Assembly: GCA_945873195.1 (NCBI GenBank)
Contig: CAMCDA010000018.1
Span: 1-39,016, forward strand
Reading direction: 5' to 3'
DNA length: 39,016 nt
DNA from: Asaia bogorensis
GTDB taxonomy: Bacteria > Pseudomonadota > Alphaproteobacteria > Acetobacterales > Acetobacteraceae
Below the pieces are notes generated by a model. It was not told where the DNA came from, made no database searches, and worked only from the letters and a program-made list of their open reading frames with translations. The position numbers and the translations under genes are program-made. Shown in pieces: positions 23,576-38,840 of the stretch (the stretch's first letter is position 1; each line of letters starts with the position of its first letter).

Positions 23576-23629
23576 CAATTCAGGGGTGGGCCTTACGCCC
23601 GGTCATGCAATTCGGGCTCAATCTGGTTC

Positions 23630-23641
23630 ATTGTATACAAT
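23630..23641. promoter_or_regulatory. Palindromic GntR-type operator
   Basis: ATTGTATACAAT is a perfect 12-bp palindrome. Its core TTGTATACAA fits the TNGT-NNN-ACNA pattern of FadR/FCD-type GntR regulators, and a regulator of that family is encoded in the operon at 28847-29563. It ends 9 bp before the sigma-54 promoter, at about -37 to -48 from the predicted start. Confidence 0.65.
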
Positions 23642-23650
23642 CTCGTATGC

Positions 23651-23667
23651 TTGGCACGGGATTTGCC
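23651..23667 (+). promoter_or_regulatory. Sigma-54 promoter of the importer/amidase operon
   Basis: TTGGCACGGGATTTGCC matches the sigma-54 consensus YTGGCACGRNNNTTGCW at every defined position except the last. The invariant GG (23653-23654) and GC (23665-23666) are separated by exactly 10 bp. Transcription would begin near 23678, about 25 bp before the ATG at 23703. Sigma-54 control needs an enhancer-binding protein; the direct repeats ATGCAATTC upstream (about -100 and -70) are possible sites. This ties the operon to nitrogen or a similar signal. Confidence 0.8.
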
Positions 23668-23702
23668 TATTCCCTGAACACCAGAAAATCGAGCAGGCCC
23701 CC

Positions 23703-25301
23703 ATGAAGCGACGCACCTTCCTGGCCGCGACCGGCGCCATCGCCGCCCCGGCCGTCCATAGTTCGGCCAAAGCACAGGCCCGCAACGAAACACTGCTGAT
23801 CGTGTCCGAGAGCGGACCGAACAACCTCGATATCCACGGCATCGGCACCAACGTGCCGGGCTACGAGGTGTCCTGGAATTGCTACGATCGCCTGATCACC
23901 CACGGGATGAAGACCACGCCCGAGGGCACGCCTTACTACGACCGTGACAAGATCATCCCCGAACTGGCCGAGGACATGGTCGTCGGCGACATGTCCGCCA
24001 CGTTCAAGCTGCGGCGGGACGCAACGTTCCAGGATGGCTCCCCGGTCACCGCCAAGGACGTGAAATGGTCGTTGGACCGTGCTGTCTCGGTCGGCGGCTT
24101 CCCGACCTTCCAAATGAAGGCCGGCAGCCTCGAAAAGCCCGAGCAGTTCGTCGTGGTGGATGATCACACCGTCCGCGTTGATTTCATCCGCAAGGACCGC
24201 CTGACCATTCCCGACCTGGCCGTGATCGTGCCCTGCGTCGTCAACTCCGGCCTGGTGCAGAAGAACGCTACGGCGGCCGATCCCTGGGGCCTGGAATACA
24301 CCAAGCAGAACACCGCCGGATCGGGCGCCTACAAGGTCACGAAATGGACCCCCGGGACGGAAGTGATCCTGGAGCGCAACGACGCCTGGAAGGGCGGGGC
24401 AATGCCGAAGATCCGCCGCATCATCTGGCGGATGGTCCCATCATCGGGCAATCGGCGGGCGCTGTTGCAGCGCGGGGACGCCGATATCTCCTACGATCTG
24501 CCGTCGAAGGACTTCGCCGGGATGAAGGCCGCCGGCAAGCTGACGCTGGTCTCCACGCCCTACAGCAACGGCATCCAGTATATCGGCATGAACGTCACCA
24601 AGCCGCCCTTCGATAATCCGAAGGTGCGGGAAGCGGTCGCGTACGCGATCCCCTATGACAAGATCATGGAAGTCGTGCTGTTCGGCCTGGGCAAGCCGAT
24701 GTTCGGCAAGACCGGTGGCCCGACCGAGGTCGCCTGGCCGCAGCCCACCCCGTTCAAGACCGACCTGGCAAAGGCCAAGGCCCTGCTGACCGAGGCCGGC
24801 TATCCGGACGGATTTGAAACGAACCTGTCCTTCGATCTGGGTTTCGCCGACGTCAACGAACCGATCTGCGTGCTGACGCAGGAAAGCCTCGGCAAGATCG
24901 GCATCAAGGCGACGCTGAATAAGATCCCAGGCTCGAACTGGCGCACGGAACTGAACAAGAAGGTCCTGCCTATCTATACGAACGTCTTTTCCGGCTGGCT
25001 CGACTACCCCGAGTACTTCTTCTTCTGGTGCTATCACGGCCAGAACGCCGTCTTCAACACCATGAGCTACAAGTCGCCGGAAATGGACTCGCTGATCGAC
25101 AGCGCGCGCATGTCGGCGGCAACCGGAGATACGGCGACCTATGACCGCTCGGTGCGCGGCTTCGTCGACCTGGCCTTCAAGGATATCCCCCGCATCCCGC
25201 TGTATCAGCCCTATGTGAACGTCGCGATGCAGCCGAACATCACCGGCTACCAGTACTGGTTCCACCGGCGGCTCGACTACCGCTCCCTCGCGAAAGGCTG
25301 A
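23703..25301 (+). CDS. Peptide/opine-type ABC transporter substrate-binding protein (family 5), system 1
   Basis: This periplasmic solute-binding protein of the DppA/OppA family delivers substrate to the adjacent permeases. The chosen start gives MKRRTFLAATGAIAAPAVHSSAKAQA, a signal peptide with a twin-arginine KRRTFL motif. The mature 500-residue part contains the family's ELAEDMVVGD..TFKLRRDATFQDG and LERNDAWKGG segments and ends near YQYWFHRRLDYRSLAKG. The frame is open back to 23586, but that would run through the sigma-54 promoter. It is the first gene downstream of that promoter. Binding specificity cannot be predicted; the family binds peptides, opines, nickel chelates and other small polar compounds. 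Confidence 0.92.
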   Translation: MKRRTFLAATGAIAAPAVHSSAKAQARNETLLIVSESGPNNLDIHGIGTNVPGYEVSWNCYDRLITHGMKTTPEGTPYYDRDKIIPELAEDMVVGDMSATFKLRRDATFQDGSPVTAKDVKWSLDRAVSVGGFPTFQMKAGSLEKPEQFVVVDDHTVRVDFIRKDRLTIPDLAVIVPCVVNSGLVQKNATAADPWGLEYTKQNTAGSGAYKVTKWTPGTEVILERNDAWKGGAMPKIRRIIWRMVPSSGNRRALLQRGDADISYDLPSKDFAGMKAAGKLTLVSTPYSNGIQYIGMNVTKPPFDNPKVREAVAYAIPYDKIMEVVLFGLGKPMFGKTGGPTEVAWPQPTPFKTDLAKAKALLTEAGYPDGFETNLSFDLGFADVNEPICVLTQESLGKIGIKATLNKIPGSNWRTELNKKVLPIYTNVFSGWLDYPEYFFFWCYHGQNAVFNTMSYKSPEMDSLIDSARMSAATGDTATYDRSVRGFVDLAFKDIPRIPLYQPYVNVAMQPNITGYQYWFHRRLDYRSLAKG

Positions 25302-25306
25302 GATCC

Positions 25307-26326
25307 ATGAAGGCCCTCCGCCCGATCGGTCGCCGCATGGCCACGGCCCTGCCCAGCGTGGTGGGGGTCATCATCGTTACCTTCCTGTTGACCCGCGTTC
25401 TGCCCGGGGACACGGCCGCCTACTTCGCCGGCCCCGCGGCAACGCCGACCGCCATCGCCGAGATCAAGGCACGCCTCGGCCTGGACCAGTCCTTGCCGGT
25501 GCAGTTCATCCGCTACGTCGGCGACCTGGTGCGCGGAGATTTCGGCTCGTCTTTGACCACGGGCCAGCCGGTCCTGTCCGATATCACGGCGCGCCTGCCG
25601 GCCTCGGCCGAACTGGTCCTGGTCGCACTCGTCCTGGCCGTCTCCATCGCCGTCCCGCTCGGCATCATCGCCGCGCTGAAGGAACGTTCGTTCATCGATC
25701 ACGCCTGCCGCGTGGTCGCTACGGCCGGTGTGTCGCTGCCGGTGTTCTTTACCGGCCTGCTGCTGGTCTATGTGTTCTACTACATCCTGGGCTGGTCGAC
25801 CTCACCGTTGGGGCGCCTGGACGTCTTCGCCACCACGCCACCAACCATCACCGGCTTCTACCTGATCGACACGCTGCTGACGGGTGACCTGGAGGGCTTC
25901 CACGGCACGGTCGCCCAGCTGGCGCTGCCCGCGGCCACGCTTGCGATCTTCGCCTTGGCGCCGATCGCGCGGATGACACGCGGCTCCATGCTCGCGGTCC
26001 TGGAATCCGACTTCGTGCGCACCGCCCGCGCCGCCGGCCTGCCGCCGACAACCGTCGTCCTCACCTACGCCTTCCGCAACGCCGTCCTCCCGGTCATCAC
26101 CACGCTCGGCATGGTGTTCTCCTTCCTGCTTGGCGCGTCGGTGCTGGTGGAGAAGGTCTTCGCCTGGCCCGGCATCGGGTCCTACGCGGTGGAGGCGCTG
26201 ATCGCCTCCGACTACGCCCCCGTGCAGGGCTTCGTGCTGGTCATGGCGGTGCTGTATCTGCTGCTGAACCTCTGTATCGACATCCTGTATGGTCTGATTG
26301 ACCCCCGGGTGAGGATCGACGCATGA
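25307..26326 (+). CDS. ABC transporter permease DppB-type, system 1
   Basis: This inner-membrane permease has about six membrane segments and pairs with the next gene product to form the translocation channel. Family features are the N-terminal VVGVIIVTFLLTRVLPGD, the extracytoplasmic LGLDQSLPVQFIRYVGDLVRGDFG, and the cytoplasmic coupling-loop sequence YTAR-like FVRTARAAGLPPTTVVLTYAFRNAVLPVITTLG around residues 220-255. It ends with [13 protein letters not shown]. The 339-residue length is usual. It starts 5 bp after the substrate-binding gene and overlaps the next gene as ATGA. Confidence 0.93.
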   Translation: MKALRPIGRRMATALPSVVGVIIVTFLLTRVLPGDTAAYFAGPAATPTAIAEIKARLGLDQSLPVQFIRYVGDLVRGDFGSSLTTGQPVLSDITARLPASAELVLVALVLAVSIAVPLGIIAALKERSFIDHACRVVATAGVSLPVFFTGLLLVYVFYYILGWSTSPLGRLDVFATTPPTITGFYLIDTLLTGDLEGFHGTVAQLALPAATLAIFALAPIARMTRGSMLAVLESDFVRTARAAGLPPTTVVLTYAFRNAVLPVITTLGMVFSFLLGASVLVEKVFAWPGIGSYAVEALIASDYAPVQGFVLVMAVLYLLLNLCIDILYGLIDPRVRIDA

Positions 26327-27210
26327 GCGCGACCGAAATGGGCAGCGTCCGTCCGACCTCCGGCCTGACCGCCACGTTGCAGCACGCCCGCCACGTGATC
26401 ACCGAAAACCCGGTCACCGGCATCGCCTTCGCCCTGTTTCTGGTGCTGATCCTCGCGGCGATCTTTGGCCCGTCCTTGGTGCCCTACGACCCGCTGGCGA
26501 CCGACAGTTCGGCGTCCCTGCGTCCCCCGTCGGCGGCGCATTGGTTCGGCACCGACCAGTTGGGCCGCGATATCTTCAGCCGGGTCGTGGTGGCGACGCG
26601 GCTCGACATGATCATCGCGCTTAGCTCTGTCGCCGTCGTCTTCGCGGCGGGCGGGCTGGCGGGGATCTCGGCCGGGTATTTCGGCGGCTGGACCGACCGG
26701 ATCGTCGGCCGCCTCGCCGACACGATCATGGCCTTTCCGCTGTTCGTCCTGGCCATGGGCATCGTCGCCGCTTTGGGCAACACCGTCACCAACATCGTCA
26801 TCGCCACGGCGGTGGTGAACTTCCCCCTCTATGCTCGCCTGGCCCGCGCCGAGGCCAATATCCGCCGCGACGCCGGCTTCGTCCTCGCCGCCCGCCTGGC
26901 CGGCAACACCGACGCGCGCATCCTGCTGTTCCACATCCTGCCCAACATCCTGCCGATCATGGTCGTGCAGATGTCTCTGACCATGGGGTATGCGATCCTG
27001 AACGCCGCCGGCCTGTCCTTCATCGGTCTCGGTGTCCGCCCGCCGACCCCGGAATGGGGGATCATGGTGGCCGAGGGCGCGGCCGGCATCATCTCCGGCG
27101 AATGGTGGGTCGCATTGTTCCCCGGCCTGACGCTAATGGGCGCGGTGTTCTGCTTCAACCTGCTGGGGGACGGCCTGCGCGACATCGTCGACCCGCGGCG
27201 CCGCACATGA
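26323..27210 (+). CDS. ABC transporter permease DppC-type, system 1
   Basis: This is the second permease of system 1. It shows the DppC signature [16 protein letters not shown] near residue 68, [28 protein letters not shown], the coupling-helix region [25 protein letters not shown], and [19 protein letters not shown] near the C-terminus. The 295-residue length fits. Four-base overlaps on both sides indicate tight translational coupling with the DppB-type permease and the fused ATPase. Confidence 0.94.
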
Positions 27211-28841
27211 GGCCGGCCATGGAAACCCTCCCGCTTCTGGATGTGCATGACCTGACGGTCGAGTTCGCCACGCGGCGCGGCGTCGTCCGGGCGGTGGAGC
27301 ATGTCGACCTGTCCGTCCGGCGTGGCGAAATCCTGGGCATCGTCGGGGAGTCGGGCTCGGGCAAGTCGGTCACGTCCTATGCCGTGATGCGCATCCTCGA
27401 TCGCGCCGGCCGCATCGCCGAGGGCAGCGTCACGTTTTCCGGTATGGACCTGCGGAATTTGCCGGAAGCCGACATGCGCGACCTGCGCGGGCGCGAGATT
27501 TCGATGGTGTTCCAGAACCCCCGCGCTGCGCTGAACCCGATCCGCAAGATCGGAAGGCAGATCGAAGACGTGCTGTTGCGCCACGGCCAGACCGCGCGTG
27601 CCGACGCCCGCGCCAAAGCCATCGCCATGCTCGACCGCGTCCGCATCGCCCGCCCCGAGGAACGTTACAACGCCTATCCGTTCGAGCTGTCGGGCGGGAT
27701 GTGCCAGCGCGTGGTGATCGCCCTCGCGCTGGCCTGCCGTCCGCGCCTGCTGATCGCCGATGAACCGACGACGGGCCTGGACGTCACCACCCAGAAGGCG
27801 GTGATGGACCTGATCGTGGAGCTGACCTGGGAAAGTAGGATGTCGGCGATCCTGATCACCCACGATCTCGGACTCGCCGCCACCTATTGCGATATTGTTA
27901 TGGTGATGGAGAAGGGCCGGGTGGTGGAGGCGGCACCCGCCGCGACAATCTTCTCGGCCCCCACGCACCCCTATACCAAGCGTCTGTTGCGGGCGACGCC
28001 GCGCCCTGGGGCGACATTGCGCGACCTGATCACCGACCCGCCGCCCAAGACGGTGCCGACCACCATGCCTAAATCCGGCCGCCTGCTGGATGTGCGCGGC
28101 CTGGTGAAGACCTATGGCACCGTCAACGCCGTGGACGGCCTCGACTTGCACATCGACCGCGGAGAGAGCGTCGGCCTGGTGGGGGAGTCCGGCTGCGGCA
28201 AGTCCACCACATCGATGATGATCATGCGCCTGCTCGATCCATCCGACGGCAGCATCCATTTCGATGGGCAGGAGATCGCGGCGATCCCCGCCCGCGCCTT
28301 CCCCCGCCATGCGTTGCGCAAGCGCATCCAGATGGTGTTCCAGGACCCGACCGACAGCCTGAACCCACGCTTCACCGCCGAACGTGCCATCGCCGATCCG
28401 ATCCTGCGCATGGCCGACCGCATGGGCCGTGACGCGCTGCGCGCTCGGTGCGAGGAACTGGCGGGCCTCGTGGGCCTGCCCACGCATCTGCTCGATCGGT
28501 TTCCGCACCAGTTGTCGGGTGGACAGAAAGCGCGCGTCGGCATCGCCCGAGCCATCGCGCTGAACCCCGATCTGGTGATCCTGGACGAGCCGACCGCCGC
28601 GCTGGATGTTTCCGTCCAGGCGGTGGTCCTGAACCTTCTGCAGAAACTCAAGATCACCCTCGGCATGTCTTATCTGTTCGTCAGCCACGATTTGCATGTC
28701 GTGCGCTTGCTGTGCGACCGCGTCATCGTCATGCGGACCGGCCGCATCGTCGAGCAGGGCACCGCCCAGCAGGTGCTCGAGGCCCCGACGGCTGGCTACA
28801 CGCGCGAACTGCTAGCGGCCGTGCCGCATCCACCGGCCTGA
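27207..28841 (+). CDS. Fused dual ABC ATPase (DppD-DppF type), system 1
   Basis: A single 544-residue polypeptide carries both nucleotide-binding domains of the importer. The first (about 10-270) has Walker A GESGSGKS near 47-54, signature LSGGMCQRV and Walker [13 protein letters not shown]. The second (about 290-540) has Walker A GESGCGKS near 323-330, signature LSGGQKARV and Walker [13 protein letters not shown]. The first signature has MC in place of the usual QR/LR pair, a mild departure. The start at 27207 overlaps the permease stop as ATGA; an ATG at 27219 (METLPLLD) is an alternative. The fused form contrasts with system 2, where the ATPases are separate genes. Confidence 0.94.
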
Positions 28842-28846
28842 CGCCC

Positions 28847-29563
28847 ATGGCACCTCGTCCCTTGGCACCCAGGAAAACCCATGCGGAACGACTCCGCATT
28901 CAGATCGCCGACGAGATCGTGCGCGGTGATCTGCCGCCCGGCTCCCCGCTTGATGAGGCGTCACTCGCCCGCCGCTTCGGCGTGTCCCGCACCCCGGTAC
29001 GGGAAGCCCTGCGGGAGCTGTCCGCGGCCGGCCTGGTCAGCATCCAGCCCCATCGCGGTGCCATCGTCACCCGCCCCACCGCAGCTGGCGTTGAGGATAT
29101 GTTCGCCGTGATGGCGGAGTTGGAGGCGCTGTGTGCCGGTCTCGCCGCGATAACAATGACACCCTCGGAACGATCGGCGCTGGGCGCCATCCACGCGACG
29201 CTGCGCGACCTGATCCATTGCGGTGACCCACAGCAATATCACGAGGTGAATGAGCGCTTTCACCACGCCATCTACCTGGGTAGTCGCAATGCCTACCTGG
29301 CCGAGGTAACGCTGACGACCCGCGCGCGATTGGCGCCATTTCGGCGAGCGCAGTTCCGGACGGCGGGCCGCCTTGCGCTCTCATATGAGGAGCACGATCG
29401 GGTGGTGCGTGCAATCGAACGAGGCGACCGGACGGCGGCGGCGTTGGCGATGCGAGATCACATCGGAATCGTTCACTTCGCCTATGAGCATTACGCCCGT
29501 GATCCGCGCGCGCCTGTCTGGCCGCTACTGGCCGAAGCCATGCCATCGGAGGACCAACCATGA
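28847..29563 (+). CDS. GntR family transcriptional regulator (FCD domain)
   Basis: This is a DNA-binding regulator of the FadR/FCD branch. The N-terminal winged helix covers about residues 8-75 and includes LDEASLARRFGVSRTPVREALRELSAAGLVSIQPHRGAIVT. The C-terminal FCD ligand-binding domain (about 85-220) has the acidic and histidine positions in MFAVMAELEALCAGLA, YHEVNERFHHAIY, EEHDRVVRAIERGD and MRDHIGIV that usually bind a metal and an organic acid. The 238-residue length is normal. It is cotranscribed with the genes it probably controls and is the natural candidate to bind the palindrome at 23630-23641. It overlaps the next gene as ATGA. Confidence 0.92.
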   Translation: MAPRPLAPRKTHAERLRIQIADEIVRGDLPPGSPLDEASLARRFGVSRTPVREALRELSAAGLVSIQPHRGAIVTRPTAAGVEDMFAVMAELEALCAGLAAITMTPSERSALGAIHATLRDLIHCGDPQQYHEVNERFHHAIYLGSRNAYLAEVTLTTRARLAPFRRAQFRTAGRLALSYEEHDRVVRAIERGDRTAAALAMRDHIGIVHFAYEHYARDPRAPVWPLLAEAMPSEDQP

Positions 29564-31284
29564 CTGATCCGATCACGATGGCCGAAGCCGCGTTGGCGGC
29601 TGATCGCGCGCATGATGACCCCGCGATCTGGGTTACTCGGTCGCCGGACAGGGCGATCCTCGATCGCGCCCGTGCCCTGGCGGCCGAGGGTCGGTGTGAC
29701 CGTCCTCTTTGGGGCGTGCCGTTCGCGGTCAAGGACAACATCGATGTCGCGGGACTGCCGACGACCGCCGCCTGTCCGGCCTTCGCCTACACACCCACCG
29801 AGGACTCCCCGGCCGTGCGGCGCCTGCTCGACGCCGGCGCGATCCTGATCGGCAAGACGAACCTGGATCAATTCGCCACCGGTCTGGTTGGCGTGCGTAG
29901 CCCTTATGGCATCCCGCGCAATGTCTTTGACGCTGGCCACGTGCCGGGCGGATCGTCGTCCGGATCGGCCTGCGCGGTTGCCGCGGGAATTACGCGCTTT
30001 GCCCTGGGAACCGACACCGCCGGATCAGGCCGTGTGCCGGCGGCCTTCGGCAACATCGTGGGGTTGAAGCCTACCATCGGCAGCGTCTCGGCGCGCGGAA
30101 TGGTGCCTGCCTGCCGGTCGATCGACACGATCTCGGTCTTCGCGCGCTCGGTCGATGAAGCGCTGGCCGTCCAACGGGTGATCGCCGCTTATGATCCAGC
30201 CGACCCCTATTCCCGTGCCGCGCCGTTTCCGCATCTCCGGCGGTCCCAGGCGCCGACCGCTTTGCGCGTGCGGTTTGCTGATCCGGGGTCCATCTGCGCG
30301 CCGGCCGTAGCGGAGGCAACGCGCGCCGTCGCGGAATCCCTGGCCGCGGAACAATTCGACATCACCCCGTTCCTGGAAATTGCCCGCTTGCTGTACGACG
30401 GACCCTGGGTCGCGGAGCGGACGGCGGCATTGGAGCATGTGCTGCGCGACCACGCTGAGGCCTGCCATCCGGTGACCCGAGGCATCCTGGAGGGCGGACA
30501 GACCCGGCGGACGGTCGATGCGTTCCACGCCTTTCACAAACTGGCCCAGGCTCGACGGCTCGCATCCGACCTGTTCGCCCACTGCGATGCCCTGCTTCTA
30601 CCCACCACGCCATATTGCCCAACGCTGGACGAACTCGCCGCCGATCCGATCGGCCCCAACAGCCGGTTGGGCATTTTCACCAACTTCGTCAATCTTTGCG
30701 ATCTGGCGGCGATCGCGGTCCCGGCCGGGTTCGGGCCCGATGGCCTACCGGTTGGCGTGACACTGATCGGGCCAGCCTGGTCCGAAGGACGGCTGGCGGC
30801 GATCGCCGATCAGATCCACCGCGCGCGCGCGACCACCTCCGGCGCGACCGGTCTGGCACTGCCCCCCGCCGAGGCAACCGATCCGATGGTTCCCGAGGAA
30901 ACGGCGCTGTTCTGTATCGGTGCGCATATGTCCGGCCTGCCCTTGAACGGGCAGTTGCTCGATCTGGGCGGGCGGTTCCTGCGCGTGGCCCGAACCATCC
31001 CCACCTATCGCCTGCACGCGATCGGGGAACGCCCCGGCCTGCTGCGCGCCCCCGAAGGTTCGGCCATCGAGGGCGAGGTGTGGGCATTGCCCACCACCGC
31101 CATCGGCGCCTTGCTCGCCCGAGTGCCAGCGCCACTAGGTTTTGGAACCGTCGATCTGACCGACGGCCCCTGTCTCGGCTTCCTGGCGGAGGCCGACGGC
31201 GTCGCGGGCAAGCCCGACATCACGGCCCATGGGGGCTGGCGCGCTTGGCTCGCCGCCAGGGCTCTCGGGAAGGAGAACGCCTGA
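29560..31284 (+). CDS. atzF: Allophanate hydrolase, AtzF type
   Basis: AtzF hydrolyses allophanate to ammonia and CO2, the last step of cyanuric acid and urea-carboxylase pathways. The 574-residue protein has an N-terminal amidase-signature domain and a separate C-terminal domain (about 445-574), the two-part layout of AtzF. The Ser-cisSer-Lys triad is K58 in VKDNIDVAGLPTTA, S132 in GGSSSGSA and S156 in GTDTAGSGRVPAAF, with the family's 24-residue spacing between serines. The C-terminal part contains CIGAHMSGLPLNGQLL, a segment ending RTIPTYRLHAI, and ITAHGGWRAWLAAR, all close to AtzF. No biotin-dependent urea carboxylase domain or gene is present, so allophanate must come from another source. 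Confidence 0.92.
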   Translation: MTDPITMAEAALAADRAHDDPAIWVTRSPDRAILDRARALAAEGRCDRPLWGVPFAVKDNIDVAGLPTTAACPAFAYTPTEDSPAVRRLLDAGAILIGKTNLDQFATGLVGVRSPYGIPRNVFDAGHVPGGSSSGSACAVAAGITRFALGTDTAGSGRVPAAFGNIVGLKPTIGSVSARGMVPACRSIDTISVFARSVDEALAVQRVIAAYDPADPYSRAAPFPHLRRSQAPTALRVRFADPGSICAPAVAEATRAVAESLAAEQFDITPFLEIARLLYDGPWVAERTAALEHVLRDHAEACHPVTRGILEGGQTRRTVDAFHAFHKLAQARRLASDLFAHCDALLLPTTPYCPTLDELAADPIGPNSRLGIFTNFVNLCDLAAIAVPAGFGPDGLPVGVTLIGPAWSEGRLAAIADQIHRARATTSGATGLALPPAEATDPMVPEETALFCIGAHMSGLPLNGQLLDLGGRFLRVARTIPTYRLHAIGERPGLLRAPEGSAIEGEVWALPTTAIGALLARVPAPLGFGTVDLTDGPCLGFLAEADGVAGKPDITAHGGWRAWLAARALGKENA

Positions 31285-31466
31285 TGCCGCCGGATGACCT
31301 GGACACACTGATCAGCGCGGGCACGGCCGTGCTGGGGATCACAGTCGATCCCGCGTGGCACGACGCGGTGCGTGCCAACCTTGAAGTCACCTTGCGCCTC
31401 GCCGCCCTCGTGGATGCCTTCCCTTTGCCGGATGAGGCCGACCCAGCCCCGGTATTCCGGGCATGA
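31284..31466 (+). CDS. atzG: AtzG-type small amidase subunit (DUF4089)
   Basis: This 60-residue protein is easily missed because it is so short. It matches the DUF4089/AtzG pattern: a helical segment containing ANLEVTLRLAALVDAFPLPD followed by the hallmark DEADPAPVFRA at the C-terminus. In the cyanuric acid pathway AtzG forms a complex with AtzE and is needed for a soluble, active amidase, much like GatC with GatA. Its ATG overlaps the atzF stop by one base (TGATG) and its stop overlaps the atzE start as ATGA, so stoichiometric coupled synthesis with the amidase is expected. The related HpxX protein of oxalurate breakdown is an alternative name. Confidence 0.88.
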   Translation: MPPDDLDTLISAGTAVLGITVDPAWHDAVRANLEVTLRLAALVDAFPLPDEADPAPVFRA

Positions 31467-32788
31467 CGGCGGCATCCGCCACGGCGGCGGTGGAAGCCAC
31501 GCTCGCTCGGATCGCCGAACGCAATCCCGTGCTCAATGCCTTCACCGCGGTCGTCGCGGATCGCGCTCGGGCCCGCGCGGCAGCGCTGGACGCCTCCCGC
31601 AAGGCTGGGCGACCGGCATTACCGCTAGAGGGCATGCCCTTCGCGGTGAAGAACCTCATTGATGTGGCCGGACTACCGACTCTCGCCGGATCGCGCATCA
31701 ACCGCGACAGGCCCCCCGCAGAGGCCGACGCAACGCTGGTACGCCGCCTGGAATCCGCCGGAGCGATCCTGGTGGGAGCGCTGAACATGGGCGAATACGC
31801 CTATGACTTCACCGGCGAGAACGTCCACGACGGGCCGTCCTGCAACCCCCACGACCCAACCCGCATGACCGGTGGGTCGTCCGGCGGATCGGGTGGCGCG
31901 GTTGGCGGGGGGCTGGTGCCGCTGGCCCTGGGATCGGACACCAACGGCTCGATCCGTGTGCCGGCGTCATTCTGTGGCGTGTTCGGGCTGAAGCCCACCT
32001 TCGGCCGGTTGTCGCGGGCCGGCAGCTTTCCCTTTGTCACGAGCCTCGACCATCTCGGGCCGCTCGCCCGCACCGTCGATGATCTTGCGCGCGCCTATGA
32101 CGCGATGCAGGGCGCGGACCCGGCCGACCCTACCTGCGCCGACCGTTCTGCCGAACCGGTTAGCCAGGACCTGGCACGCGGGCCGGATGGACTGCGCATC
32201 GCCATGCTGGGCGGATACTTCCGCATGGGCGCCACGTCACAGGCCCTTGAAGCCGTCGCCGCGGTGGCCAAAAGCCTCGGCGCCACGCGGGAGATGGAAC
32301 TGCCGGAAGCCGCCCGCGCCCGCGCCGCCGCCTTCGTGATTTCGACGACCGAGGGCGCCGCCCTGCATCTGGACCGCCTTCGGACCCGTCCCGGCGACTT
32401 CGATCCCGCGGTGCGGGACCGGCTGATTGCCGGCGCGCTGGTGCCCGCGCCGCTGGTGACCCGCGCCCAGAAATTTCGCCGCTGGTATCGTGACGCCGTG
32501 CTGACACTGTTCGATGACGTGGACATCCTTCTTGCCCCCGCGACCCCGTGTTCGGCGCTTGCGCTCGGCCAGACAACCTTGGACCTTGGCGGAGAAATCG
32601 TGCCGCTGCGGCCGAATATCGGAATCTACACCCAGCCGATTTCGTTCATCGGATTGCCGGTGGCAACAGTGCCCGTGGCCGGACCTGGCCTGCCCATCGG
32701 GGTCCAGATCATCGCCGCGCCCTGGCGCGAGGACCTCGTGTTACGGACGGCATGGCGGTTGGAGCAAGCCGGGTTCAAATCAGTGTGA
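31463..32788 (+). CDS. atzE: AtzE-type amidase-signature hydrolase
   Basis: AtzE with AtzG removes ammonia from 1-carboxybiuret to give 1,3-dicarboxyurea. The 441-residue amidase-signature protein has its catalytic triad at K63 (FAVKNLIDVAG), S139 (TGGSSGGSGG) and S163 (GSDTNGSIRVPASF), with the family's 24-residue spacing. FTGENVHDGPSCNPHDPTRM and ATPCSALALGQ are typical of the AtzE/HpxY branch. Direct coupling to the small DUF4089 gene upstream supports this assignment over a general amidase. Substrate is inferred from context; HpxY-type enzymes acting on oxalurate share the same organisation. Confidence 0.88.
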   Translation: MTAASATAAVEATLARIAERNPVLNAFTAVVADRARARAAALDASRKAGRPALPLEGMPFAVKNLIDVAGLPTLAGSRINRDRPPAEADATLVRRLESAGAILVGALNMGEYAYDFTGENVHDGPSCNPHDPTRMTGGSSGGSGGAVGGGLVPLALGSDTNGSIRVPASFCGVFGLKPTFGRLSRAGSFPFVTSLDHLGPLARTVDDLARAYDAMQGADPADPTCADRSAEPVSQDLARGPDGLRIAMLGGYFRMGATSQALEAVAAVAKSLGATREMELPEAARARAAAFVISTTEGAALHLDRLRTRPGDFDPAVRDRLIAGALVPAPLVTRAQKFRRWYRDAVLTLFDDVDILLAPATPCSALALGQTTLDLGGEIVPLRPNIGIYTQPISFIGLPVATVPVAGPGLPIGVQIIAAPWREDLVLRTAWRLEQAGFKSV

Positions 32789-32863
32789 CCCGCTCGGTGG
32801 CAGAGCGCATTTCAGTGTTTGGCCCCGCTTGTTTCCGAACCCGACACACGGCTAAGGTTGCTG

Positions 32864-33781
32864 ATGCTTCTGTTGCTCTTTCGCCGGTTGATCGTTGCGC
32901 TGCTGGTCTGTACTGCGGTCCTGATCTTCGCCTTCGCCTTGACCCGCCTCGCGGGTGACTTGGCGACCTCGATCGCCGGGCCAAACGCGACCGCCAACGA
33001 TATCGAGGTTGTCCGCAAGGCCTATGGCCTGGACAAGCCCATAGTGACACAGTTCTTTGACTGGGTGATGCGCGCCGCCGTGGGCGACTTCGGCCAGTCC
33101 TATTTCTACAAGGAACGCGTCTCCACGCTGATCTTCGATCGGTTGCCCATCACCATGACCCTTGGATTGGTGGGGCTGGGCATCGCACTGGTCGTCGCGC
33201 TGCCCTTGGGGGTAATCGCCGCGCTGAATGAGGGCCGGCTGATCGACCGCCTGATCTCGCTGGTCGCACTTCTGGGCCAGGCGCTGCCATCCTTCTGGCT
33301 TGGCCTCATGCTAATGATCACACTGGGCTTGCATCTCGGGTGGCTGCCGGTCTCCGGCACCGGCACGTGGCAGCATTTCGTGATGCCTGGAATCGTGCTG
33401 TCGTTTTCCGCCATCCCGGCCCTGATGCGGCTGACGCGCAGTGGGATGATCGACGCGATGGCGGCCGACTATATCCGGACAGCGCGCGCCAAGGGCCTGT
33501 CGCGCGGGTCCATCATCCTCAAGCACGCGGCCCGCAACGCCGCCATGCCGGTTGTTTCCATCGCCGCCGTTCAGTTGGGATTCATGCTTGGTGGATCAAT
33601 CGTTATCGAGACGGTATTCGCTCTGCACGGAGTAGGGTTCCTGGCCTGGGAGTCGATCAGCAAGAACGATTTCCCGACCGTGCAGGCGGTCGTTCTGCTG
33701 CTTGCGATCCTGTACACGCTGCTGACGCTGCTGGCTGACCTTCTGAACGCGGTGCTCGATCCCCGGCTCCGCGCATCATGA
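32864..33781 (+). CDS. ABC transporter permease DppB-type, system 2
   Basis: This is the first permease of a second oligopeptide-type importer. The 305-residue protein shows the N-terminal LIVALLVCTAVLIFAFALTRLAGD, then YGLDKPIVTQFFDWVMRAAVGDFGQSY, and the coupling region YIRTARAKGLSRGSIILKHAARNAAMPVVSI. The frame is open from a TTG at 32819, but the ATG at 32864 follows AAGG at a good distance and begins the first membrane helix. The 75-bp gap after the amidase gene is the largest within this part of the operon; I see no sigma-54 site in it. Confidence 0.92.
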   Translation: MLLLLFRRLIVALLVCTAVLIFAFALTRLAGDLATSIAGPNATANDIEVVRKAYGLDKPIVTQFFDWVMRAAVGDFGQSYFYKERVSTLIFDRLPITMTLGLVGLGIALVVALPLGVIAALNEGRLIDRLISLVALLGQALPSFWLGLMLMITLGLHLGWLPVSGTGTWQHFVMPGIVLSFSAIPALMRLTRSGMIDAMAADYIRTARAKGLSRGSIILKHAARNAAMPVVSIAAVQLGFMLGGSIVIETVFALHGVGFLAWESISKNDFPTVQAVVLLLAILYTLLTLLADLLNAVLDPRLRAS

Positions 33782-34611
33782 GGGCCTCCAACAAGATCGG
33801 TCTTTGGATCGGCGCGGTGATCTTCGTCGGGATTGGGCTGATCGCGCTTTTCGCCCCGTTGCTGGCGCCGCATGATCCGTATCTGCAGGACCTGACACGG
33901 CGCTTGCTGCCGCCGTTCTGGATGGACGGTACGAACCCCGCCTATCTGCTCGGGACCGATCAGTTAGGCCGGGATTATCTGTCCCGGCTGATCTATGGCG
34001 CTCGCATTTCGATGCTGATCGGCATCCTGACCGTCGTGGGGTCCGGCGTGATCGGTACGGCGATCGGCGTCGCCGGAGGCTTCTTCGGCGGCAAGGTGGA
34101 TGATGTCGTGATGTTCGCCATCACAACGCGGCTGTCGATCCCCTTGATCCTGGTCGCGCTGGCAGTCGTGTCACTGGTCGGTGGTTCCACAACGGTCGTC
34201 GTTATGACGCTCGGCCTATTGCTGTGGGATCGCTTCGCCGTGGTCGCGCGCGTGGCGACGATGCAGGTCCGCACGCAGGACTTCGTGGCCGCCGCCTGGT
34301 CGGCCGGCTGCTCCCAGTTTCACATCGTGCTGCGGGAGATCCTGCCGAACATCCTGGCACCGCTCGCGGTCGTCACGACGCTGGAGATGGCGCTGGCAAT
34401 TCTGCTGGAGGCCGCGTTGTCCTTCCTCGGCCTGGGTGTGCCGCCGCCGCTGCCGTCCTGGGGACTGATGATCGCGGAAGGGAAGGACTACATGTTTTTC
34501 AGCCCCTGGGTGATCATGATCCCCGGCCTGTCGCTCTGCGCGCTGGTGTTCGGCATCAATCTGCTGGGGGATGGCCTGCGCGACCTGCTGCACACCGGAC
34601 GGACAACCTAA
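33778..34611 (+). CDS. ABC transporter permease DppC-type, system 2
   Basis: This 277-residue permease has the DppC signature [22 protein letters not shown] near residue 58. It continues with DDVVMFAITTRLSIPLILVALAVVSL, the coupling helix FAVVARVATMQVRTQDFVAAAWSAG, and LGLGVPPPLPSWGLMIAEG near the C-terminus, ending with [10 protein letters not shown]. It overlaps the preceding permease as ATGA and the following ATPase by one base (TAATG). The N-terminal soluble extension seen in system 1 is shorter here. Confidence 0.94.
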   Translation: MRASNKIGLWIGAVIFVGIGLIALFAPLLAPHDPYLQDLTRRLLPPFWMDGTNPAYLLGTDQLGRDYLSRLIYGARISMLIGILTVVGSGVIGTAIGVAGGFFGGKVDDVVMFAITTRLSIPLILVALAVVSLVGGSTTVVVMTLGLLLWDRFAVVARVATMQVRTQDFVAAAWSAGCSQFHIVLREILPNILAPLAVVTTLEMALAILLEAALSFLGLGVPPPLPSWGLMIAEGKDYMFFSPWVIMIPGLSLCALVFGINLLGDGLRDLLHTGRTT

Positions 34612-35579
34612 TGGCGCTGTTGGACGTCGAACGGCTGGAAATCGGCTTTGGCGGCCTGGCGGCCGTGCGCGGCATCTCATTCCAGGTCGGAAAGGGGGAA
34701 ACCCATTGCCTGGTCGGTGAGTCTGGATGCGGCAAGTCCGTCACCGCCCTGGCTGTGATGGGGCTGCTGGCGCCCACCGCCGTCCGTTCCGCCGCGGGGC
34801 TGCGCTTTGATGGGCAGGACCTGATGGGGCTGTCGGAGCGCGAGATTTCCCGTCTGCGCGGCGACCGCATGGCGATGATCTTTCAGGAGCCGATGACCAG
34901 CCTCAATCCCGCCTACACCGTCGGCTCCCAGATGGCGGAGGTGTTGATCCGCCATCGTGGAGGGTCCAAACGCGCCGCGATGGATCGCGCCGCGGAATTG
35001 CTGGAGCGCGTTCGGATCACATCCCCTGGCATGCGGCTGACCCAATATCCGCACCAGCTTTCGGGCGGCCTGCGCCAGCGGGTCATGATCGCCATGGCTT
35101 TGATGTGCGGGCCGGAACTGCTGATCGCGGATGAGCCGACCACGGCACTGGATGTCACGGTGCAAGCGCAGATCCTGAAACTGCTGGCGGAATTGCAGCA
35201 GGATCTGGGCCTGGCGATTCTGCTGATCACCCATGACCTGGGTATTGTCGCCCGGGTCGCCCATCGGGTGTCCGTCATGTATGCCGGCGAGGTCGTGGAA
35301 ACCGGCCCGGTCGCGGATCTGTTCGGTGCCCAGATGCATCCATACACCCGCGGTCTGCTGTCCTGCGTGCCCGTCCCTGGCAAGATCAAGCCAGGCGACC
35401 CGCTTGGTTCCATCCCCGGCATGGTTCCCCGGGTCGAGCATGGCTTCACCGGCTGCGCCTTCCGCCAGCGTTGCGAACTGGCGCGACCAGATTGCGCCGG
35501 CACCATCCCACGCCGCCCCTTGGCCAGTGGTCACGACTACCTGTGCCAACGTGAGCCGGCGGAGATCATCCGGTCATGA
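34611..35579 (+). CDS. ABC transporter ATPase DppD-type, system 2
   Basis: The 322-residue ATPase has Walker A GESGCGKS near residues 38-45, Q-loop MIFQEPMTSLNP, signature LSGGLRQRV, Walker [13 protein letters not shown] and the H-loop THD. The C-terminal oligopeptide-transporter domain includes HPYTRGLLSCVP and a cysteine cluster (CAFRQRCELARPDC and a later C) that binds an iron-sulfur cluster in DppD/OppD homologues. The chosen ATG at 34611 overlaps the permease stop; the longer open frame upstream is a shadow of the permease gene. Confidence 0.94.
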   Translation: MALLDVERLEIGFGGLAAVRGISFQVGKGETHCLVGESGCGKSVTALAVMGLLAPTAVRSAAGLRFDGQDLMGLSEREISRLRGDRMAMIFQEPMTSLNPAYTVGSQMAEVLIRHRGGSKRAAMDRAAELLERVRITSPGMRLTQYPHQLSGGLRQRVMIAMALMCGPELLIADEPTTALDVTVQAQILKLLAELQQDLGLAILLITHDLGIVARVAHRVSVMYAGEVVETGPVADLFGAQMHPYTRGLLSCVPVPGKIKPGDPLGSIPGMVPRVEHGFTGCAFRQRCELARPDCAGTIPRRPLASGHDYLCQREPAEIIRS

Positions 35580-36535
35580 GCGCGCCGCTGGTCGAAGTTC
35601 GTAACGTCAGCCAGACATTCCGAGTCCGCGACGGTCTGTTCGGCCGGCCGCGCCGTGTCGTCGCGGTTGATGGGGTTTCTCTCACGCTGAACGCTGGCGA
35701 GGTGATCGGCGTTGTCGGTGAGTCGGGCTGCGGTAAATCCACCTTGGCCCGTATCATCCTCGGGCTGCAAAAGCCGACGTCGGGAGAAGTTTTGATCGAC
35801 GGCAAGCGTCTGCATGACCTCGATCGGCGGGAACGTGCTCGGCTCGTCCAGCCGGTGTTCCAGGACCCATTCTCCTCCCTGAATCCCCGCCGCCGCGTTC
35901 GTGACATCGTCGGTATGCCGCTGGTCGCGCAGGGCGGTGCTAGCGATGCCGAAGCGCGGTCGAGCGTCGAGGCGATCATGGAACGGGTCGGACTAGATCC
36001 CGCGATGGGAGAGCGCTTGCCGGCGCAGCTGTCCGGCGGGCAACGCCAGCGTGTGGCAATTGCGCGGGCACTGATCCTGCGCCCCAGGCTTGTGGTCTGC
36101 GATGAGCCGACCAGCGCGCTGGATGTCTCGGTACAGGCACAAATCCTGAATCTGCTGGCCGAACTGCGACGAGAGTTCGGGCTGTCCTACCTTTTCATCA
36201 GCCATAATCTGGCGGTTGTGGAGCACGTCGCGAGCGAGGTCGCGGTCATGTATCTGGGCCGCATCGTGGAGCGGAACGTCTCCGCCGCTCTGTTCCACGC
36301 GCCCCGGCATCCCTACACGCAGGCGCTGCTGGCTTCCGTGCTGACGCCTGAGCCGGGCCTGGGAATCCCTGAAATTGGATTGGGCGATACGATGCCCGAC
36401 CCCGCCAACGTGCCGCCCGGCTGCCGGTTCCATCCGCGCTGCCCGGTTGCGGTGGCGGACTGCGCGGTAACGGCGCCAGCGGCGGTCAGGGCCGGCGGCG
36501 CCGAGGTCGAGTGTCTTCTGGTTACACCCGGCTGA
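35576..36535 (+). CDS. ABC transporter ATPase DppF-type, system 2
   Basis: This 319-residue protein is the second ATPase of system 2, with Walker [10 protein letters not shown] near 48-56, Q-loop PVFQDPFSSLNPRRRV, signature LSGGQRQRV, Walker B LVVCDEPTSALD and H-loop SHN (the usual histidine, followed by Asn). The C-terminus has HPYTQALLASV and the cysteine pattern GCRFHPRCPVAVADC. The insert LFGRPRRVVAVDGVSL after the first strand is typical of OppF/DppF. It overlaps the DppD-type gene as ATGA. Confidence 0.94.
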   Translation: MSAPLVEVRNVSQTFRVRDGLFGRPRRVVAVDGVSLTLNAGEVIGVVGESGCGKSTLARIILGLQKPTSGEVLIDGKRLHDLDRRERARLVQPVFQDPFSSLNPRRRVRDIVGMPLVAQGGASDAEARSSVEAIMERVGLDPAMGERLPAQLSGGQRQRVAIARALILRPRLVVCDEPTSALDVSVQAQILNLLAELRREFGLSYLFISHNLAVVEHVASEVAVMYLGRIVERNVSAALFHAPRHPYTQALLASVLTPEPGLGIPEIGLGDTMPDPANVPPGCRFHPRCPVAVADCAVTAPAAVRAGGAEVECLLVTPG

Positions 36536-36552
36536 TCATCCCACCCGGCGAT

Positions 36553-36569
36553 CTGGCCCATGGTTTGCG
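36553..36569 (+). promoter_or_regulatory. Weak sigma-54-like promoter upstream of atzH
   Basis: CTGGCCCATGGTTTGCG keeps the invariant GG (36555-36556) and GC (36567-36568) with exactly 10 bp between them and has the TTGC block. It departs from consensus at four other positions. A start near 36580 would leave about 23 nt before the atzH ATG, with GGAGAG as the ribosome-binding site. If real, it would put atzH under the same sigma factor as the main operon. Confidence 0.45.
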
Positions 36570-36602
36570 CGGCATTAACAACGCACCCCGGAGAGACCAT
36601 TC

Positions 36603-37004
36603 ATGGATATCAACCTACCGGCCATCGTCGCGGAGGTAGAGACGGCCTTCGAGGCATATGAAGCAGCCCTGATCACCAATGACGTGGCGACCTTGCAAGC
36701 GTTGTTCTGGAACAGCCCGCTGACCATCCGCTACGGTATCAACGAAATCCTGCACGGGTGGGATGAGATTGGCGCCTTCCGCTCTGCCCGGTCGCCGGTT
36801 GGGCTGATGCGCCGCACCTCTCGTACTGTCATCACCACGTTTGGGCGTGACTGCGCGACGGCCTCCACCTTGTTTCATCGGGAAACCACCCCGGGCAAGG
36901 TGGGTCGGCAGATGCAGACCTGGGCACGCATGCCCGAGGGATGGCGCATCGTCGCCGCGCATGTATCGATTATTGATGCGGCCGAGGAGGGTACGCAGGG
37001 CTGA
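36603..37004 (+). CDS. atzH: AtzH-type 1,3-dicarboxyurea decarboxylase (DUF3225)
   Basis: AtzH speeds decarboxylation of 1,3-dicarboxyurea to allophanate between AtzE/G and AtzF. The 133-residue protein has the NTF2-like fold pattern of DUF3225, with RYGINEILHGWDEIGAFR, the RSPVGLMRRTSRTVITTFGRD block, ATASTLFHRETTPGKVGRQMQTW and GWRIVAAHVSII, all characteristic of AtzH and the related HpxZ. It starts 67 bp after the last transporter gene with a GGAGAG site, perhaps from its own promoter. With AtzF, AtzG and AtzE it completes the lower cyanuric acid route. Confidence 0.88.
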   Translation: MDINLPAIVAEVETAFEAYEAALITNDVATLQALFWNSPLTIRYGINEILHGWDEIGAFRSARSPVGLMRRTSRTVITTFGRDCATASTLFHRETTPGKVGRQMQTWARMPEGWRIVAAHVSIIDAAEEGTQG

Positions 37005-37232: not shown

Positions 37233-38840
37233 TCAGCCAACAGTGATCTGCGTCAGGTCGAGGAACCAGCTCTGCACCGGCTGGAAGCCCTTGACCTTCT
37301 TCGACATGCCGCGCGGGTTCATGTCATGGACCATGAAGAGCCAGGCGGCATCGTCCACCACGCTTTCATGCGCCTTGGCCAGGAACTTCGTCTGTTCGGC
37401 CGGATCGAAGGTGTTCTGGGCCTTGCGGAGGTTGGAACTGGCTTCCTCATTCAGCCAGTGCCCCCAGTTGTAGTTGGTGGGGGAGAAGCTCTCCTTGGCA
37501 TAGTACCGGAACATGGCGGCCGGATCGACCCAGGCGAGGCTGATGTTGATCCCGTGCACGCCCCGGCTTTGCGCCGCGCGCGGATCGTTGCGGACCGCGA
37601 CCAGCATCGTGCCCCATTCCACGACGTCGAACTCGATATCGATGCCGACCGCCTTGCAGTTCTGCTGCATGTACTCGTTCATCGGGATCGGCAGCATCTG
37701 CCCGGACCCTGACGTGGAGATCATGATCTTGGCCTTCACCGGCTTGCCCGGACCGTAGCCCGCTTCCTTCAGCAGCGCCTTGGCCTTTTCCGGATCGTAG
37801 GTGTAGCGCTCCTTCGGGGAACCGAAGGCTGGGGCTTCCGTCGTGTAGAGACCCTGGGCCGGACGGGCGATGCCGTTGATCAGCTTCACCAACCCTTCCC
37901 GGTCGATAGCGTAGTTGATCGCGCGCCGGACCCGCACATCGGCGAAGGGGGAGCCTTCGATCGTGTTCAGCACATAGGGATAGGTGTGCGGATAGGACCA
38001 GAGCGTGACCTCGAACCCCGCCTGCCGGAGGGAGGGGATGGAGTCGGGGGCCGGCACCTCGATCCAGTCCACCTGCCCGGACCGCAGGGCGGCGACGCGC
38101 GTGGTGGGTTCCGGCATCGGATAGACAACCAGCTTGTCCAGCTTGGGGATGCGGTCCTTGTCCCAATAGGCCTCGTTGCGGACCATCTCCACATACTGGC
38201 CGGCCACGACGCGGCTGATCTTGAACGGACCCGTGCCGACCGGCTTCTTGGAGAACTCGGCCCAGCTTTTGCCTACCGCCTCCCATTGCGCCGGGCTGAC
38301 CATCAGGACGCGGGTCAGCATGTAAGGGAAGAAGCTGAACGGGAACTTCGTCGTGATGACGATCGTATTGTCATCCAGCTTCTCGAAGGCATCGAGCATC
38401 GAGACCGCCGCCTTGATGATCGGCGCGGCGGTGGCATCGTATTGCGGCGACTTCTCGTCATAGACCCGGCGCAGGTTCCAGATCACCGCGTCGGCGGTGA
38501 AATCGGTCCCATCGTGGAACTTCACGTCCTTGCGAACGGTGAACAGCCACCGCAGCGGATTCGCCTCGTCGATCTTCCAGGCGCTGAACAGACCCGGACG
38601 CAACGCCGCCGGTTGGTCGCGGTTGTTCAGCAGATCCCAGTTCACCAGGGCGTCGTAGGGCTGGTAGCCGAGGAAGCGAAACCCCTCGAACCCGTTATTG
38701 GGGATACCGTGCGTGGTCGGAAGGTCCGACGCCGTCATGGCGATGCGCAACGTGCCCCCGCCGGCGGCCATGGCGGGGGTTGCCGCCGTGGCCGTCGCGG
38801 TGGCCGCGGTCGTTGCGATGAAGCCGCGTCTCGAAAGCAT
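37233..38840 (-). CDS. Peptide/opine-type ABC transporter substrate-binding protein (family 5), system 2
   Basis: This 535-residue periplasmic binding protein of the DppA family begins MLSRRGFIATTAATATATAA, a twin-arginine signal peptide (SRRGFI) ending near AMA. The mature part has WLFTVRKDVKFHDGTDFTADAVIWNLRRVYD, PVGTGPFKISRVVAGQYVEMVRNEAYW and VRRAINYAIDREGLVKLINGIARP, all typical. It is the only candidate binding protein for the system 2 permeases and ATPases, which lack one in their own operon, yet it is transcribed in the opposite direction. GAGGT precedes the ATG. Its upstream region is cut short by an IS21-like end at about 38869. Confidence 0.93.
   Translation of the reverse strand: MLSRRGFIATTAATATATAATPAMAAGGGTLRIAMTASDLPTTHGIPNNGFEGFRFLGYQPYDALVNWDLLNNRDQPAALRPGLFSAWKIDEANPLRWLFTVRKDVKFHDGTDFTADAVIWNLRRVYDEKSPQYDATAAPIIKAAVSMLDAFEKLDDNTIVITTKFPFSFFPYMLTRVLMVSPAQWEAVGKSWAEFSKKPVGTGPFKISRVVAGQYVEMVRNEAYWDKDRIPKLDKLVVYPMPEPTTRVAALRSGQVDWIEVPAPDSIPSLRQAGFEVTLWSYPHTYPYVLNTIEGSPFADVRVRRAINYAIDREGLVKLINGIARPAQGLYTTEAPAFGSPKERYTYDPEKAKALLKEAGYGPGKPVKAKIMISTSGSGQMLPIPMNEYMQQNCKAVGIDIEFDVVEWGTMLVAVRNDPRAAQSRGVHGINISLAWVDPAAMFRYYAKESFSPTNYNWGHWLNEEASSNLRKAQNTFDPAEQTKFLAKAHESVVDDAAWLFMVHDMNPRGMSKKVKGFQPVQSWFLDLTQITVG

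Follow-up and report, generated by a model that had tools for sequence, protein, structure and literature searches.

A candidate nitrogen-scavenging operon for 1-carboxybiuret in an Asaia bogorensis assembly, and the linkage of its relatives to TrtA

The genes atzE, atzG, atzH and atzF were named for herbicide breakdown, and the role they had before s-triazines is at issue. A stretch of 39,016 nucleotides assigned to Asaia bogorensis (positions 1 to 39,016 of contig CAMCDA010000018.1, our contig C18; hereafter the window) poses the question in a concrete form: all four genes stand there together with two oligopeptide-type (Opp) ATP-binding cassette (ABC) importers. Which compound would such a set process, and which enzyme would feed it? 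On balance, and with modest confidence, we read the locus as a nitrogen-scavenging operon for 1-carboxybiuret, a compound that the triuret hydrolase TrtA would often supply in relatives. The source assembly (GCA_945873195.1; genome G000 in our sets) comprises 5.45 Mb in 400 contigs, with a completeness of 97.8%.

From the first solute-binding protein (SBP1) through AtzH (23.6-37.0 kb) the genes all lie on one strand, with intergenic gaps of -4 to 69 bases, in the order SBP1, OppB, OppC, OppDF, GntR/FCD, AtzF, AtzG, AtzE, OppB, OppC, OppD, OppF, AtzH. They are listed here with their Pfam and NCBIfam matches, followed by the two flanking genes.

23586..25301 (start 23586 or 23631), + strand: SBP1, family-5 solute-binding protein of importer 1 (PF00496, 266 bits)
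25307..26326, + strand: OppB1 permease (PF00528, 133 bits)
26323..27210, + strand: OppC1 permease (PF00528, 113 bits; OppC_N, 32 bits)
27219..28841, + strand: OppDF1, two fused ATPase domains (PF00005 in two stretches within 27210-28448)
28862..29563 (start approximate), + strand: GntR/FCD regulator (PF07729, 89 bits; PF00392, 62 bits)
29560..31284, + strand: AtzF allophanate hydrolase, amidase plus C-terminal domain (TIGR02713, 681 bits, cut-off 511)
31284..31466, + strand: AtzG, 60 aa, partner of AtzE (PF13318, 52.8 bits, cut-off 24)
31463..32788, + strand: AtzE amidase (TIGR02715, 678 bits, cut-off 426)
32858..33781, + strand: OppB2 permease of importer 2 (PF00528, 138 bits; frame from 32819)
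33778..34611, + strand: OppC2 permease (PF00528, 75 bits)
34611..35579, + strand: OppD2 ATPase (PF00005, 96 bits; NF008246, 331 bits, under its cut-off of 541)
35576..36535, + strand: OppF2 ATPase (PF00005, 129 bits)
36603..37004, + strand: AtzH (DUF3225/HpxZ family), putative 1,3-dicarboxyurea decarboxylase (PF11533, 188 bits; NF033625 HpxZ, 186 bits, cut-off 135)
37233..38840, - strand: SBP2, family-5 solute-binding protein, convergent downstream (PF00496, 278 bits)
22385..23398, - strand: TauD-family 2-oxoglutarate dioxygenase, divergent upstream (PF02668, 115 bits)

The Opp/Dpp-type set of a family-5 SBP, two permeases and two ATPase domains is complete for both importers, the SBP of importer 2 being encoded on the opposite strand; SBP2 may serve importer 2, and the TauD dioxygenase probably lies outside the unit. 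The original prediction, made from the letters of the window, had recognised AtzF, AtzG, AtzE and AtzH as well as two Opp-type importers, all of which these matches bear out. It had drawn the unit from 29560 to 37004, a start that comes too late, since importer 1 and the GntR gene (23.6-29.6 kb) are part of the unit. Scans for promoters and terminators rendered signals at or under shuffle expectation.

Comparison with solved proteins agrees with these names. AtzF carries a C-terminal AH_C domain (PF21986, 127 bits) and has 4GYR as solved relative (E 1.7e-153), while AtzE matches the enzyme of Pseudomonas ADP (6C62, E 4.3e-145; 58% identity over 87% of the query) and AtzG matches the AtzG chain of the same structure weakly (E 0.0081). 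Lys63, Ser139, Ser140 and Ser163, which would be catalytic as in the amidase family, are invariant across an alignment of 11 AtzE proteins. The AtzEG of the window is a putative 1-carboxybiuret hydrolase. All nine pocket residues of AtzH given in a passage of PMC6219798 (Tyr22, Arg46, Arg63, Arg66, Arg73, Phe94, Arg96, Gln106 and Gln108) are retained in a by-eye reading of the alignment, with an offset of 3; 2RCD, read likewise by eye, keeps most or all of them too, so that these residues do not separate AtzH from HpxZ.

When the Pseudomonas ADP pathway was reconstituted (PMC6219798, in part), carboxybiuret was the substrate of AtzEG, and AtzH, on indirect evidence, made AtzF release ammonia faster. 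On our reading of the window, importer 1 would take up triuret or a related small ureide, and a feeder enzyme, most often TrtA in relatives and none that could be found in the window genome, would yield 1-carboxybiuret. AtzEG would convert this into 1,3-dicarboxyurea and ammonia, AtzH would decarboxylate 1,3-dicarboxyurea to allophanate, and AtzF would break allophanate down to ammonia and CO2, with the GntR/FCD protein as the probable regulator of the set. Both amidases would thereby follow a shared plan, taking ammonia off a terminal carbamoyl group and leaving an N-carboxylate for a second activity to decarboxylate; within AtzF this second activity is presumably the C-terminal domain. For this organism we infer all of these reactions, the feeder and what either importer carries.

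The evidence that carries this reading comes from the neighbourhoods of relatives. Sixty stretches were read, one of them from the own genome, picked from a list of AtzH matches and mainly high scorers. The contiguous atzF-G-E-H block recurs among them, and in six of the 60 a hydrolase of about 228 residues adjoins atzE (five with AtzF nearby). The best solved relative of this hydrolase is 6XIX. This structure is the triuret hydrolase TrtA (PMC7948467, in part), and TrtA and AtzD both produce carboxybiuret according to the same pages. Eleven TrtA-like neighbours (10 distinct, the L059 locus being the contig of L212) match 6XIX at 12 of the 12 site residues checked, for which the numbering was shifted by 3. 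In L037 the neighbour is another enzyme, BiuH, which departs from 6XIX at four of the 12, including Glu160 to Asp, a difference named in the text seen of PMC7948467.

Co-occurrence was counted in whole genomes, where a permissive first screen passed on its top candidates alone for scoring and TrtA was called present in the association counts at an identity of at least 60%. Among 249 genomes of the same family, in which AtzH, AtzE and AtzF were detected at the thresholds used in 150, 93 and 93, respectively, TrtA is found in 44 of the 93 with AtzE versus 14 of the 156 without it (p 9e-12), and in 12 of the 16 with a contiguous, same-strand atzF-atzE pair versus 46 of the 233 others (p 8e-6). 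A sample of 198 genomes from a second family, that of Bradyrhizobium sp. Ghvi, rendered TrtA in 61 of 114 genomes with AtzE versus 6 of 84 without (p 1.4e-12). For a third set, named genomes were scanned using the AtzE alignment and the best 80 loci were kept, mostly from Bradyrhizobium and kin plus Acetobacteraceae; 48 genomes chosen from these loci, mostly with long contigs and largely of Bradyrhizobium and kin, were searched for TrtA and AtzD, and 43 have TrtA at 66% identity or more while 17 have AtzD. The sets overlap: at least nine of the 48 genomes recur among the 198, and at least four, to judge by matching coordinates, are also among the 249.

The association extends to distance. The first family has 17 places where one contig holds both TrtA and atzE, at a spacing of 0.3-6.2 kb in 16 of the 17, and the two lie within 5 kb of each other in seven genomes of the second (G262, G306, G313, G317, G385, G430, G477); in L171, L206, L207 and L212, importer 1, AtzGEH, AtzF and TrtA all fall within a single locus. 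AtzD also occurs close by, 385 bases from atzE in G017. A new substrate, which had been the default of the original prediction, is therefore no longer the first choice, since a known carboxybiuret maker is tied to AtzE by both co-occurrence and distance. In several loci TrtA is followed by a protein some 525 residues long that looks membrane-bound on inspection by eye (L065, 14702-16282, and relatives), with no Pfam match at 1e-5 and no NCBIfam match at 1e-10; this protein might bring in the substrate of TrtA as a permease.

Conservation of the other genes was assessed in the 80 named loci and, where flanks mattered, in the 47 of them with at least 7.5 kb on each side. A relative of SBP1 (at least 45% identical, mostly about 75%) stands beside AtzE in 39 of the 47, and the same long-flank loci carry labels for AtzH (45), AtzF (39), GntR at 50% or more (38) and trtA (3). 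Over all 80, trtA is labelled in five, SBP2 (at least 40%) in one and TauD in none. The genes often run SBP1-OppB-OppC-OppDF-AtzG-AtzE-AtzH-GntR, and AtzF then faces this row. The single SBP2-bearing locus, in Methylobacterium (L217), has its 48% identical relative after AtzGEH, and weaker second importers were seen near the block in L056, L077, L174 and again L217. With SBP1 kept in 39 of 47 loci and SBP2 in one of 80, importer 1 appears to be a genuine component of the system and importer 2 an accessory. The idea of a unit that imports and deaminates thus gains from the comparison across genomes, which shows importer 1 conserved and neither importer 2 nor TauD. The dioxygenase had also been proposed to make the first cut. 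As a pathway member it was rejected, with no label in the 80 named loci and one 36% match in the 60 fetched; the 2-oxoglutarate enzyme of a Roseomonas mucosa cluster, considered as its counterpart, has no meaningful similarity to it (E 0.10).

The AtzF proteins of the 39 loci fall into two classes of identity to that of the window, 46-52% (33 loci) and 68-78% (six loci), in differing orientations. The occurrence of two AtzF classes beside one block suggests that allophanate would be the product of AtzGEH. A second arrangement, with AtzF (55-59%) directly joined to AtzH and no AtzGE in the block, was observed in 12 loci (L042, L044, L046-L049, L067, L069, L087-L090); eight of the 12 have members of an SBP cluster, of the NMT1 type in L044, other recurrent genes encode an alpha/beta hydrolase and a D-2-hydroxyacid dehydrogenase, and several of these genomes have an AtzE of 55-62% or more elsewhere.

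Does the window genome itself hold a feeder? The original prediction had stated that AtzD/TrzD and urea carboxylase are missing, and a genome-wide profile search of the assembly agreed. The AtzD model PF09663 has no match in the whole assembly; control genomes were silent too in the first search, and the same model detects AtzD in 46 of the 249 same-family genomes, again not in G000. The urea carboxylase model TIGR02712 gave 12 partial matches, none above cut-off, which cover the ends of the model only (the biotin-carboxylase and biotin-carrier parts) and nothing in positions 445-1101. TrtA and BiuH were not detected at E 1e-30 (11 of 15 first-look candidates scored). A divergent isochorismatase-family protein hiding as TrtA or BiuH was considered and rejected: the family rendered four matches (all 10 candidates scored), the best of them reaching 31% identity with TrtA across 196 residues, with one stretch of 48 residues at 37.5%. 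The allophanate sources that were searched, namely the cyanuric acid, triuret/biuret and urea carboxylase routes, are therefore not represented in this genome; the guanidine route was not searched.

These absences weigh against the operon as a TrtA-fed carboxybiuret route, and several further points stand on the same side. TrtA, BiuH and AtzD were not found at the thresholds used in the two nearest relatives either (L145 and L146, metagenome-assembled genomes of unstated completeness), where AtzE is 84-85% and importer 1 is 85-93% identical to those of the window; the 21-kb locus of L145 carries no AtzH label, and the contig of L146 terminates within atzE. Five of the 48 chosen genomes, these two included, lack TrtA, and AtzD is missing from all five. 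Three same-family genomes that are 95-99% complete (G156, G006, G026) have the block and no match to TrtA, BiuH or AtzD. Because near relatives and such complete genomes are also without these enzymes, the absence of TrtA in the window genome is hardly only an assembly gap. Moreover, TrtA linkage is seen beside AtzE proteins of 56-62% identity (e.g. L041/G096), beyond the AtzE clade of the window, and on the best tree the AtzE of Pseudomonas ADP falls outside that clade, beside Klebsiella HpxY. Shared ancestry may inflate the TrtA/AtzE counts, and a tree-controlled test of AtzF context versus TrtA had three usable pairs, too few for power. The two records of L145 and L146 are titled Nitrosovibrio and Asaia, the Nitrosovibrio title looking doubtful.

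For the subclade without TrtA, it is conceivable but doubtful that the operon imports and mineralises a ureide outside all described pathways. Along the lines of the original prediction, the operon of this subclade would process a different imported compound, a ureide or N-carbamoyl compound of larger size; the first cut would fall to AtzEG or to an enzyme encoded elsewhere, and TrtA would not be needed. The missing feeders of the window genome and its two nearest relatives fit this proposal, as does the presence of two Opp-type importers, the solved sequence relatives of SBP1 being recorded as binding proteins of peptide, heme and AgaA type. On the other hand, this importer 1 is found together with AtzGEH, AtzF and TrtA in the four loci named above, and no conserved enzyme was seen that could replace TrtA, TauD included. 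We regard this explanation as unlikely, while it is the best placed of the alternatives.

Contexts in some relatives hint at ureides that come from the oxidation products of purines and pyrimidines. A genome of the same genus (G199; L053, 14194-18875) has an atzFGEH block followed by an 8-oxoguanine deaminase, a dihydropyrimidinase, a DUF3830 protein and RutA, and in G099 a member of the same deaminase cluster lies beside an ABC importer, the best NCBIfam matches of the importer being of B6 type and under cut-off.

It can also be the case that the genes form an HpxXYZ-like oxalurate route, in which AtzGE and AtzH would give oxamate and AtzF would serve an unrelated source of allophanate. Homologues of HpxX, HpxY and HpxZ are all present in the window, as AtzG, AtzE and AtzH. 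The AtzE of the window is 55.5% identical to the protein in the HpxY position of Klebsiella and 58% to that of Pseudomonas ADP, so that identity barely separates AtzE from HpxY, and the pocket of AtzH is shared with 2RCD. In the AtzE tree the window belongs to a clade of 47 rows (support 100/98), for which placement of the Pseudomonas ADP enzyme inside is not rejected (p-AU, from the approximately unbiased test, 0.27). This clade also holds an Acidithiobacillus caldus megaplasmid run (L229, 1418-11808) with xanthine dehydrogenase genes, a ureidoglycolate lyase, a ring-opening amidohydrolase, AtzG-AtzE-HpxZ and a gamma-glutamyltransferase, flanked on both sides by transposases. Nevertheless, 36 of the 47 rows of the clade have AtzF at 6 kb or less from AtzE, versus one of the 17 rows outside it (contexts of reference rows were taken from gene tables that may be incomplete), no HpxW-type gamma-glutamyltransferase is found between 22 and 39 kb of the window, and the unrelated source of allophanate is missing from the genome as far as searched. 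In a Bradyrhizobium, part of PMC9927569 describes the expression of urea carboxylase, and AtzF there could have another source of allophanate, because that enzyme is expressed. The original prediction had held that an oxalurate route would leave AtzF unexplained, which agrees with the contexts in the tree, although identity alone hardly discriminates AtzE from HpxY; we consider an oxalurate role rather improbable. A decaying remnant, whose feeder was lost in the subclade and whose lower genes persist by chance or for traces of carboxybiuret, would account for the feeder not being found in three related genomes and for the unlabelled AtzH of the L145 locus, but is very improbable for a set with open and tightly packed reading frames, a second importer and an importer 1 so close to the copies of L145 and L146.

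Two further observations concern the same genome. On contig C233 (1-8001, L031) a second AtzH, 46-48% identical to the first, follows an amidase about 35% identical to AtzE and adjoins a luciferase-type monooxygenase and a TctC protein. At 171-2398 of the window a histidine-specific methyltransferase adjoins an FGE-sulfatase/DinB protein, a layout that we take to be that of the ergothioneine genes egtD and egtB.

The carboxybiuret operon, if it is one, would bear on the role of these enzymes in nature. The linkage of TrtA in two families of Alphaproteobacteria, together with the conserved importer, suggests that this role is the scavenging of nitrogen from triuret-like compounds; sources of triuret named in the passages seen of PMC7948467 are the oxidation of uric acid and fertiliser impurity. 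It also provides a testable gene set in cultivable Bradyrhizobium, while the TrtA-less genomes are a puzzle and the more interesting remainder. No report of a TrtA-AtzGEH link or of a conserved Opp importer appears in the titles, abstracts and passages of the literature searched, and the excerpts of PMC5017803, PMC6321122, PMC9927569 and PMC3098086 hold no direct evidence on the pathway.

Among known systems, the atzDGEHF operon of plasmid pADP-1 of Pseudomonas sp. ADP shares homologues of AtzG, AtzE, AtzH and AtzF with the window, which differs in having no AtzD in the whole assembly, in the order F-G-E-importer-H, in its own importers and in an AtzE that belongs to another clade on the best tree, though not securely. 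The TrtA-TrtB-BiuH-AtzF pathway of Herbaspirillum sp. BH-1 (PMC7948467, in part) shares the carboxybiuret hub and AtzF as the last step, and TrtA occurs in many relatives of the window locus; AtzEG and AtzH would here replace TrtB and BiuH, and neither TrtA nor BiuH was found in the window genome. In nitrifiers, TrtA is grouped with BiuH and AtzF according to the portion seen of PMC12625717. The hpxXYZ genes of Klebsiella encode HpxX, an AtzE-family protein and HpxZ, homologous to AtzG, AtzE and AtzH; the window cluster adds AtzF and Opp importers, and has no HpxW-type transferase. Clusters of allophanate hydrolase, an ABC transporter and atzGEH were described in 2018 in Comamonadaceae and Burkholderiales, their role being left open in the relevant section of PMC6219798. 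They have the same grouping of genes, while the window belongs to the Alphaproteobacteria and shows a defined Opp-type importer conserved across genera and, in relatives, linkage to TrtA. The AtzF/ABC/AtzGEH grouping was therefore already known, and the TrtA linkage and the conserved importer are what our analysis adds to it.

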